A DNA stretch of 33,005 nt from Nitrospira sp. (GTDB taxonomy: Bacteria > Nitrospirota > Nitrospiria > Nitrospirales > Nitrospiraceae), in assembly GCA_005116965.1 (NCBI GenBank), contig SWDG01000025.1, positions 266,778 to 299,782 of the forward strand, written 5' to 3'. Positions within the stretch are counted from its first letter, which is position 1; each line of letters opens with the position of its first letter. Position numbers and translations under genes: made by a program. Below the pieces are notes generated by a model. It was given only the letters and a program-made list of their open reading frames with translations, was not told the DNA's origin and did no database searches. Shown one piece after another: positions 29,869 to 33,005 of this stretch.

Positions 29869-31881
29869 CTAACAGCACCCTGTCCCAGGCGGTAGCTTGA
29901 AGCACCTCTGTTCGTCATCGTGTTGACAAATCGCCGTTTGCATCCGCCCTGCTGATCCTCCCCCTGCCATCACAACAACCTCGCTCGATGTAAACGGCTT
30001 CTTCAAGACCACATAGCCATACCACTGCCTCAAACTGTCGCTCAAGACAATCAAACCCAGCACCGCAACCAGTGCCACCAGCACGGCATCCAGATAGAGC
30101 GAAAAGGCTTGTCCAGCCGCCAATGTTCCAGCCTTCTTCAAGAACATCCAAAACATCTCATACGATCCAGTCAATGTAATCATCCCCACGAAGAGCATCG
30201 GCAGCACTGTGACCCACAGATAAGAAGACTTCCACATCTTGATCAACACGGTAGTTCCGATGCAAAGAGCCAGCGTGCCCAATAATTGATTTGCAGCACC
30301 AAACATCGGCCAAATCGTCGAAATGCTTCCTGTTCCGATCAGATAGGCCCAGGCACCCACGACCACACCGCTGCTCAACATCACACCCGGCATCCAGTTC
30401 ATTCGGCGAAAGGGCGCATAGACCCGTCCTGCCATTTCCTGGATAAGATATCGTCCCACACGCGTGCCCGTATCAATCGTCGTCAGGATGAAGAGCGCTT
30501 CAAATACGAGCGCGAATTGATACCAGTAGGCCATCAGACCGGCCATGCCGGGCAAGGCTGAAAAGATCGACGCCATGCCGACGGCCAAAGACACAGCCCC
30601 GCCTGGGCGTCCCGCCACATCCACCTCGACCATTTGTGACAGTTCAGCGATTCGCGACGGGGCAAAACCCATCGCCGCCAATGCATCTGCACCCAATGTC
30701 GTATTGATCGCCAGGTAGTCGCCAGGAATCAGCACCGAGGCCGCGATCAACGCCATGACACCGACAAAACTTTCCAGCAACATCGCCGCGTACCCCACCA
30801 CCGCCTGCGACTCCTGCTCAATCATCTTCGGCGTCGTACCGGACGAGACCAGTGAATGGAATCCTGAGATTGCCCCGCAGGCGATCGTGATAAAGAGGAA
30901 CGGGAAGAGCGTGCCTGGAATAATCGGCCCGCCGCCATTCGCAAACTGTGTCACACGCGGCATCTCGATCGTCGGTGCCATGAGGATCACACCAAAGCCG
31001 AGCAGGAAGACCACGCCGAGTTTCATGAAGGTGGAGAGATAGCCACGCGGCACCAGCAACATCCAACCGGGCAGTACTGACGCAAGAAAGCCATAGCCAG
31101 CTAGCAGCCAGATCAGCGCTGGCCTGTCAAACTCGAAGAGCCACGCATAGGACGATTGCGCCACCACACGGCCGTACAGCACGGCGGCGATCAGGAGAAC
31201 CACGCCAAGTAGTGACACTTCCGCAACCGCACCGGGCCGAAACTTTTGAAGATAGAAGCCCATGAGGAGACCAATCGGAATCGTCATCGCGATCGTGAAC
31301 GTGCCCCAGGCATTGTGGTAGAGCGCATTCACCACGGCGAATCCAAGACCAGCCAGAGCCACCACGACAATAAAGAGCACCGCCACTGCCGTCGCCGTGC
31401 CGGTGACAGAGCCCAGTTCATCGTGGGCAATCTCGGGCAACGAACGTCCGTTGCGACGCATCGAGGCGACGAGAATGATGAAATCTTGTACCGCCCCAGC
31501 GAGCACCGCCCCGATCACCAGCCAGAGAAACCCCGGCACAAATCCGAATTGCGCCGCTAACACCGGACCAAGCAAAGGCCCCGCACCTGCAATTGCCGCG
31601 AAGTGATGGCCAAAGAGGACGACCTTATTGGTCGGATGGAAGTTGACCCCGTCGTTCAACCGCACCGCTGGCGTGACGTGTTGATTGTTCAGTCCGACTA
31701 CCTGCCTGGCCAGCCAGCGACCATAGAACCGATAGGCCAGCACATAGATGCAGGTCGCCGCGACGACAAGCCAGAGGCCATTCACTTTTTCGTTTGGATT
31801 GACGACGCCGACCACGTGAGCCAGCGCAAACGCACCGAGGAGAGAGAGCAGGACCCAGAGCAGATTCATACCCACTTTCAT
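29869..31881 (-). CDS. cstA: CstA-family carbon starvation/pyruvate or peptide transporter
   Basis: About 670 residues from ATG 31881 (AGGA eight bases upstream); ATGs at 31890 and 31869 are alternatives. It is highly hydrophobic with many membrane segments. Family motifs include YRFYGRWLARQVVGL, the HPTNKVVLFGHHFAAIAGAG stretch followed by PLLGPVLAAQFGF, GAVQDFIIL, GFHSLVSSGTTPKMIEQES, and MFGAANQLLGTLALC. E. coli CstA and BtsT (YjiY) take up peptides or pyruvate when carbon is short; the substrate here is not decided by sequence. It is monocistronic or leads into yajQ after 147 bases. The last about 20 residues, with a CQHDDEQRCF stretch and terminal CC, look unlike the core. Confidence 0.93.
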   Translation of the reverse strand: MKVGMNLLWVLLSLLGAFALAHVVGVVNPNEKVNGLWLVVAATCIYVLAYRFYGRWLARQVVGLNNQHVTPAVRLNDGVNFHPTNKVVLFGHHFAAIAGAGPLLGPVLAAQFGFVPGFLWLVIGAVLAGAVQDFIILVASMRRNGRSLPEIAHDELGSVTGTATAVAVLFIVVVALAGLGFAVVNALYHNAWGTFTIAMTIPIGLLMGFYLQKFRPGAVAEVSLLGVVLLIAAVLYGRVVAQSSYAWLFEFDRPALIWLLAGYGFLASVLPGWMLLVPRGYLSTFMKLGVVFLLGFGVILMAPTIEMPRVTQFANGGGPIIPGTLFPFLFITIACGAISGFHSLVSSGTTPKMIEQESQAVVGYAAMLLESFVGVMALIAASVLIPGDYLAINTTLGADALAAMGFAPSRIAELSQMVEVDVAGRPGGAVSLAVGMASIFSALPGMAGLMAYWYQFALVFEALFILTTIDTGTRVGRYLIQEMAGRVYAPFRRMNWMPGVMLSSGVVVGAWAYLIGTGSISTIWPMFGAANQLLGTLALCIGTTVLIKMWKSSYLWVTVLPMLFVGMITLTGSYEMFWMFLKKAGTLAAGQAFSLYLDAVLVALVAVLGLIVLSDSLRQWYGYVVLKKPFTSSEVVVMAGGGSAGRMQTAICQHDDEQRCFKLPPGTGCC

Positions 31882-31975
31882 GCGCGGCATCCTAGCATAA
31901 TGGGGAAGGAATGGGCGCAGCGAGCTTGACCCTTGCTTAAGAGATCTCTACCTGCATTCTCAAATAGAACCCCGA

Positions 31976-32004
31976 TTGACACATGATTCGGATAAACGTA
32001 GGCT
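31976..32004 (+). promoter_or_regulatory. Possible promoter for the nuclease-ATPase locus
   Basis: A perfect TTGACA (31976-31981) is followed after 17 bases by TAGGCT (31999-32004, three of six). The -10 is weak. The spacing and position, about 50 bases before the chosen start codon, are reasonable. Confidence 0.4.
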
Positions 32005-32057
32005 TCTCGAACCGAGCTAATAGAATTTATGATGGGTATCTCCGGGAGTTATACATC

Positions 32058-32762
32058 ATGAGCACCTTCACGATAGACCAGTGCCACGCAGCTTTAGATC
32101 GACTCATTGAAAAGCATTCACAACTTACCCTGAGCGATGCCAACGAAGCTGAAACACGACTCAAGGTCATAGATAAAGTCCTGAGAGAAGTGCTTGGTTG
32201 GCAGGACGATGATCTTTCTGTAGAGGAAAGGTGTTCCGAAGATTCCAGAACGGTTTTTGCTGATTACATTGTAAGAACAGCAACTACCAGCCTAATCGTT
32301 GAAGCCAAAAAGGCAGGGGCAACATTTCTCCTTCCAACAAGTCAGAGATCAGGAAAATTAGGCGGTGCCCTCAAAGAAGGCGAGATGGGGGAGGCTATTC
32401 GCCAGGTTCGAGATTACTGCCGCATGAAACATATGCCCTTTGCAGTAGTGACAAACGGTAGTGCATGGATTGTCTTCCCAGCCATAAGAACCGATGAGAT
32501 AACCTTTGAGGATACTCAAGCACGAATATTTCGTAGTCTTATAGATATCAAGGAACGAATCGTTGAATTTTGGGAACTACTTTCTCGGCAGCGTGTCGCA
32601 GAAGGAAATCTTGAGCATGAGCTTCTTAGCCCTGAAAAGAACGTTTCCGCCAGACGGGTTCTATCACTCGTTAGAGAACCTGGTTTCAGGCTAGGACGAA
32701 ATGCACTCTACGAGCATATTGAGCCAGCCGTGAATGCTGCGCTAACGGATGAAGCTCTTTGA
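32058..32762 (+). CDS. HsdR_N-like PD-(D/E)XK nuclease domain protein, ended by an in-frame TGA
   Basis: 234 residues from ATG 32058, with GGGAG nine bases upstream; an in-frame extension to 31983 has no such site. The pattern matches the N-terminal nuclease domain of type I restriction R subunits: E32 (EAETRLKVIDKVLREVLGW), D69 (FADYIV), and E82-x-K84 (LIVEAKKAG), followed by the conserved segment QVRDYCRMKHMPFAVVTNGSA with a likely structural glutamine. No signal peptide or membrane segment. The remaining about 70 residues are helical (EHELLSPEKNVSARRVLSL, then ALYEHIEPAVNAAL). The reading frame continues past the TGA (32760-32762) into a P-loop protein, so this is probably the front half of a longer nuclease-ATPase. 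The local DNA is more AT-rich than the dcw cluster, suggesting transfer. Confidence 0.78.
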   Translation: MSTFTIDQCHAALDRLIEKHSQLTLSDANEAETRLKVIDKVLREVLGWQDDDLSVEERCSEDSRTVFADYIVRTATTSLIVEAKKAGATFLLPTSQRSGKLGGALKEGEMGEAIRQVRDYCRMKHMPFAVVTNGSAWIVFPAIRTDEITFEDTQARIFRSLIDIKERIVEFWELLSRQRVAEGNLEHELLSPEKNVSARRVLSLVREPGFRLGRNALYEHIEPAVNAALTDEAL

Positions 32763-33005
32763 AATGACCCCGAAGCCCTAAGACTTTGTTATGTGAAAAG
32801 TAGTGAGCGGCTCAAGTATGACTCTAGGCTACAAATGGTTGTGAGCGACGCCAAAACATATCTAGGTCATAAGACCACTCGCGTTCGATCTAGAAAATCC
32901 CAAGGCTATCTTGAAACACAAATTACTCAGGATGCTCCTGGAAGACCACGATTTATCCTAATCTTGGGAACCGTCGGGGCAGGGAAAACTACCTTTTTAC
33001 AGTAC
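32763..33005 (+). pseudogene. P-loop NTPase domain continuing in frame after the TGA (partial, runs off the window)
   Basis: Eighty-one codons without a stop follow the TGA at 32760-32762 in the same frame. The translation has NDPEALRLCYVKSSERLKYD, then a basic linker (KTTRVRSRKS), and ends in a Walker A motif GTVGAGKTT (32967-32993) preceded by a hydrophobic strand (FILILG). This is the layout expected of an ATPase joined to the nuclease domain. There is no well-placed start codon with a ribosome-binding site; a GTG at 32793 and an ATG at 32835 are in frame but unconvincing. It is therefore probably the back half of one gene interrupted by a nonsense codon. An independently translated second gene, or a sequencing error at the TGA, are the alternatives. 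The remainder lies beyond the window. Confidence 0.62.

Follow-up and report, generated by a model that had tools for sequence, protein, structure and literature searches.

A single nuclease-ATPase gene of Nitrospira, probably interrupted by a recent nonsense mutation, beside a presumably CstA-like gene

The window, that is, the whole stretch of 33,005 nucleotides analysed here (positions 266778-299782 of contig 27 of its genome), closes with a nuclease-ATPase reading frame on the plus strand, which contains an in-frame stop codon and lies next to a gene on the minus strand whose product is presumably CstA-like. The features of this end of the window are as follows.

29869-31890, minus strand: flanking gene that borders a variable interval, presumably CstA-like (from the sequence)
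32044-32048, plus strand: GGGAG, resembling a ribosome-binding site, 9 bases 5' of the ATG at 32058 (from the sequence)
32058-32759, plus strand: first 234 codons, comprising an HsdR_N-like (PD-(D/E)XK type) nuclease part and the beginning of the ATPase part (Pfam HSDR_N_2; invariant residues in alignment A3)
32262-32264, plus strand: Asp 69, candidate catalytic residue (invariant in A3)
32301-32309, plus strand: Glu-Ala-Lys, residues 82-84, candidate ExK motif (invariant in A3)
32760-32762, plus strand: in-frame TGA, codon 235 (a sense codon in all aligned homologues)
32763-33005, plus strand: continuation of the ATPase part for 81 codons without change of frame, as far as a scaffold gap (nSTAND_NTPase5, E 0.00024, below its cut-off)
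32835-32837, plus strand: in-frame ATG with a weak AGG 6 bases 5', the sole restart candidate, not kept as a gene start in homologues
32967-32993, plus strand: Walker A motif GTVGAGKTT, residues 304-312 (from the sequence; invariant in A3)

The start at ATG 32058 is where homologues begin at the equivalent place. As the preliminary description had stated, the TGA is in frame and is followed by 81 sense codons that reach the Walker A motif. The frame is indeed open to the window end, but these 81 codons mark the limit of the window and not of the gene, as the window ends at 33005 because the assembly stops there, with a run of exactly 100 N (a scaffold gap) from the next base. Beyond the gap, L002:1386-1673 encodes 96 more codons, which align with the homologues G119 and L050 as the C-terminus of the same protein, while about 416 codons, as measured on the G119 homologue, are hidden in the gap. 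The C-terminus is less conserved, with 57% identity to G119 versus 91-92% for the codon stretches flanking the TGA; since L050 also departs from G119 at the C-terminus, this was read as normal variability and not as a wrong join.

Relatives of the window protein are single open reading frames of about 800-980 codons, in which an HsdR_N/PD-(D/E)XK-like nuclease precedes an AAA+ ATPase of the ORC/STAND type, the C-terminus being helical. Residues 6-316 of the window protein (P0001) match positions 4-318 of the 833-position phrog_14719 profile (E 1.2e-53), and residues 3 to 805 of the Klebsiella homologue are covered by this single profile (E 4.7e-154). Pfam HSDR_N_2 scores just above its cut-off in the window protein (E 1.5e-5, 25.5 bits versus a cut-off of 25). 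The nuclease motif residues E30, D69, E82, and K84, as well as Walker A, are invariant in A3, an alignment that omits seven of the 37 genome and viral-contig loci (L047, L048, L049, L056, L059, L061, and L065); the catalytic roles of D69 and the ExK at 82-84 are presumed by comparison with PD-(D/E)XK nucleases. Full-length homologues match KAP, AAA_22, AAA_16, and nSTAND_NTPase5 with weak to moderate Pfam scores, the STAND models scoring below cut-off both in the window protein and in homologues. The predicted model of the window's 316 residues is middling (pLDDT 68.7), and every one of its fold matches has E above 0.001; resolvase or nuclease chains take ranks 1, 2, and 4. Solved structures gave no useful match for P0004, and the profile A4 gave P-loop matches only.

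At the column of the TGA, all 44 aligned homologues (42 distinct, in sets of 14 and 30) carry a residue instead of a stop, namely K, D, E, N, Y, L, S, G, or A. The check proposed in the preliminary description, a sense codon at this point in homologues, thus came out in favour of an interruption, and the continuity of the frame across the TGA is not attributable to chance, because a single phrog_14719 match spans it and the homologues read through. Among intact relatives the nearest is L050, whose record bears the title Acidobacteriota MAG; it shares 77% identity across the compared stretch and has Leu at this column. The region concerned is L050:1798-8436, on an 11-kb contig, where ORFs upstream of the gene resemble those for ParA and a plasmid replication protein, so that this contig is possibly a plasmid. 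In G119, of the same genus as the window, the gene adjoins the same flanking gene and likewise has Leu at the column, but it possesses a single-base frameshift of its own near codon 84 (L007:9530-9868). Both copies at this locus in the genus, those of the window and of G119, are therefore broken independently. A distant homologue in G082, also of this genus (30% identity), has a frameshift around residue 474 of the Shewanella homologue.

In other phyla and on plasmids of Klebsiella, Kosakonia, Enterobacter, Rhizobium, Robbsia, Acinetobacter, Shewanella, and Paracoccus, the gene is an intact single ORF of 802-976 residues. A scan of genome contigs with the single window protein returned nothing; alignment A2 found 27 loci in bacterial genomes, and 10 further loci are in viral contigs (IMG/VR). 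Altogether 55 loci were examined, comprising five genomes of the same phylum (G119, G082, G443, G327, and G182), 10 plasmid records taken from 29 and 30 matched, the 27 genome contigs, the 10 viral contigs, and three of eight E. coli copies; L063 and L066, and L064 and L020, are repeats within this set. The gene is an intact single ORF in 41 loci, broken in 11 (G119, G082, L028, L042, L048, L049, L055, L056, L061, L065, and L068), and cut by contig ends in three (L047, L051, and L059). Independent break events number fewer than 11, because L065 and L048 are identical, and a break near residue 363 is common to L061 and L068. The breaks lie near Klebsiella residues 116, 194-206, 211-216, about 280, 363, 430, 585-627, and 770, apart from that of G119 near codon 84; an IS903B insertion accounts for one of them, and the broken copies include complete or named isolate records (a Serratia plasmid and E. 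coli C8). With 11 of 55 loci broken, true inactivation is common in the family. Frameshifts in L048 (duplicate L065) and L049 are located at Klebsiella residues 194-216, near the window's stop, and the three breaks within residues 194-235, including that of the window, form a small cluster recognized after the fact. The frameshifts at L048:6582-6636 and L049:6593-6648 are in unrelated copies, both between the nuclease and Walker A, with a long T run in L048. The broken L056 ends in sequence that is presumably transposase-like.

The gene is rare in broad samples. It was found in three of 175 genomes of the family sample, namely the window's own, G119, and G082, and eight of 395 genomes matched in the phylum sample, from which G314 (the nuclease part alone matched) and G282 (the ATPase and later part alone) were dropped. 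In the class of an Enterobacter, the single match among 369 genomes is the centre genome itself, and 8 of 5,426 E. coli genomes carry the gene, seven with a single annotated feature and one with two. The E. coli copies (L067, L068, and L069) are within Rac-type prophages, opposite to their neighbours, and the copy of strain C8 is broken; the copy of K. aerogenes adjoins phage genes that are presumably P2-like. A tblastn search of 50,697 phage records with two homologues gave no match at the limit used, suggesting that the gene is unlikely to be common in deposited phages, although 10 loci are IMG/VR contigs and the E. coli copies are prophage-borne. The gene is thus accessory and mobile, being carried by plasmids and prophages.

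The variable spot spans window positions 31890-33005, with counterparts in L139-L155. Between the CstA-like gene and gene P0006, for which no Pfam match was found, the interval ranges from 46 bases to 4.7 kb in sister genomes. Seventeen intervals were taken with both borders, five of them below 1 kb and 12 larger, and a PADLOC match with E below 0.001 was obtained in 11 of the 12 intervals above 1 kb, a raw count in which several of the matched models are generic AAA ATPases. The PADLOC assignments are given below.

G129 interval: retron II-A
G074 interval: PD-Lambda-5 A and B
G053 interval: HEC-08 with PDC-M30
G067 interval: SIR2/ThsA-like
G061 interval: SIR2
G069, G062, and G072 intervals: OLD/AriA/GajA-like ATPases
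G082 interval: DndB
G085 interval: dGTPase-like HD protein
G058 interval: PDC-M04A

The twelfth interval (G120) contains a MazF/Kid-like ORF (E 7.1e-13). Judged by such gene content, the spot bounded by the CstA-like gene and P0006 would be a defence hotspot of the genus; no report of such a variable spot was found in the parts of the open-access literature that were searched. Seven genomes also possess a decayed second copy of the 5' end of the CstA-like gene, about 0.1-0.9 kb upstream of the real 5' end (L007:9245-9388, L149, L153, L154, L155, L156, and L157). A toxin-like ORF lies between the decayed and the real 5' ends in two of the genomes, MazF/Kid-like in L149 and RelE-like in L153.

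Constraint on the protein was compared on the two sides of the stop. Relative to G119, nonsynonymous differences per site amount to 0.054 before the TGA and 0.043 after it, while synonymous sites are saturated, with 0.77 and 0.76 of sites differing on the two sides. Private residue changes number 22 in the window only versus 15 in G119 only (p 0.32), and by both measures no relaxed selection was seen after the stop. This is expected if the stop is very young, and the claim made here is therefore of a recent interruption and not of an old pseudogene. With the dS of cstA (1.24) taken as a neutral clock, the data disfavour an age of the stop beyond 5% of the window's branch (P 0.029 at 5%, 0.051 at 4%). 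There are too few residue changes after the TGA, so that the stop is either very young or absent from the living cell. The view that one protein is interrupted by the stop, as had been proposed earlier, is borne out by every homologue examined reading through and by the equal constraint on both sides.

We consider, with a probability of roughly 0.6, that the window carries one nuclease-ATPase gene recently interrupted by a true nonsense mutation, and that this copy is probably inactive. The main rival is an error of assembly or sequencing, or a minority variant near the contig end, with the gene being intact in the living strain. On the sequence, recent nonsense and error look alike: the TGA is 243 bases before the scaffold gap and contig end, a position that calls for caution over the reality of the stop; elsewhere the visible frame is open and constrained; and an error would look just like a stop too young to have left any further trace. 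However, true breaks are frequent among family members, the Serratia plasmid and E. coli C8 included. Moreover, the codons of the two nearest relatives at the column (CTG and CTT) differ from TGA at all three positions, which needs an unseen intermediate under mutation and more than one miscalled base under error, unless the true codon is another. We regard error as rather unlikely, while treating it as the most serious competitor to recent nonsense.

The explanations in which the stop has a function fare worse against the homologues. A design of two proteins, in which a nuclease subunit stops at the TGA and an ATPase subunit begins further downstream, would draw on ATG 32835, whose weak AGG qualifies the earlier statement, broadly upheld, that a good second start is lacking, and on the frameshifts of L048 (duplicate L065) and L049 near the same place. 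Yet the preliminary description's alternative of families consistently split here found no counterpart: separate genes with their own starts occur in none of the homologues, 41 of the 55 loci being single ORFs and the 11 broken ones being broken at many places. In the predicted model of the full-length homologue L030 (pLDDT 82.7), the TGA (residue 235) would correspond to about residue 227, inside the Cdc6/ORC-aligned stretch that starts at about 208, suggesting that the stop cuts into the ATPase module and not between modules. Reinitiation as two subunits, once listed as an option, accordingly lost ground on the homologues, which show neither a stop nor a separate start, and we hold it improbable. 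Programmed or tolerated read-through of the UGA into a short and a long product would agree with the constraint continuing after the stop and with the A that follows it, UGA followed by A being a leaky context in E. coli. The stop is kept in none of the 44 aligned homologues, however, the 120 bases that follow are no more stably folded than shuffled versions (z -0.84, 37 of 200 as good), and L002:300-2100 has no Rfam match. Regulated read-through, another earlier suggestion, is thus disfavoured and appears very improbable. For decoding of the UGA as selenocysteine or under an altered genetic code, the open frame alone speaks in favour; on the other side, Cys occupies the TGA column in no homologue, and the search for tRNA-Sec gave 13 weak matches, none over the cut-off, eight of which are ordinary tRNAs at the matched place according to ARAGORN. 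This explanation hardly deserves credence.

Returning to recent nonsense in a single gene, the TGA would end translation 234 codons in and leave a nuclease part that lacks the Walker A and B motifs and the C-terminus, so that activity is most likely lost; the window copy would have lost it by a very recent nonsense mutation, as other copies did by frameshifts and insertions. The intact gene is probably a single-gene defence candidate, a reading that draws on its domains, mobility, and neighbours. Of the earlier suggestion of an inactivated defence gene, the interruption is thus supported by homologues, while the defence part depends on these three indications. In such a gene, the ATPase part may sense or load on invading DNA or protein, and its ATP-driven assembly might license the nuclease to cut, which would protect against phage or plasmid.

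There is nothing unusual in the stop itself, and the family and the hotspot are of more interest. The nuclease-ATPase family is widespread and uncharacterised; that many of its copies are broken would fit a costly accessory gene, and what appears to be a small defence hotspot in the genus could be mined for new systems. A bolder proposal would be that PHROG 14719 is an unnamed single-gene nuclease-ATPase defence system, repeatedly disabled between nuclease and Walker A (by the TGA here and by the frameshifts of L048 and L049), of which the window copy makes two products at a fixed ratio; if so, a leaky UGA or a restart would yield a short nuclease-bearing product and a long or ATPase-only one, and the stop would tune a costly system. 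We regard this as very improbable.

Several known systems share parts of this architecture. The family resembles HsdR of type I restriction in the N-terminal HsdR_N-like nuclease part, but where HsdR has its motor, the family has an AAA+ ATPase of ORC/STAND type; an HsdR would carry an SF2 helicase motor after the nuclease, whereas the Pfam scans of homologues found no helicase family at the limits used. Beyond the nuclease end, the family is covered by no PADLOC model, and the likeness to DrmMI (DISARM class 1) and type IIG enzymes is confined to the N-terminal nuclease-like 180 residues. The DrmMI match (E 1.9e-11) spans positions 46-223 of 1347, and the window protein is without the methyltransferase part. 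The ATPase fold predicted for L030 is similar to those of STAND/ORC-like ATPases, including RdrA of RADAR, Cdc6/Orc1, TnsC, and Apaf-1/CED-4. It matches Cdc6 (1fnn) with Z 13.9 over 253 residues (rmsd 3.7) and RdrA (8hr8) with Z 12.2 over 309 residues (rmsd 5.3), and similar scores (Z 10.5-13.9) are reached by chains of ORC, TnsC, RdrA, and CED-4. These scores do not single out the STAND NTPase fold that would place the family with the Avs/STAND anti-phage proteins. Identity is 7-15%, and among the matches listed none covers the nuclease part of the family (model residues 1-206). PHROG 14719, with 833 positions and unknown function, resembles the window copy along the profile, from which the latter differs by the stop at codon 235.
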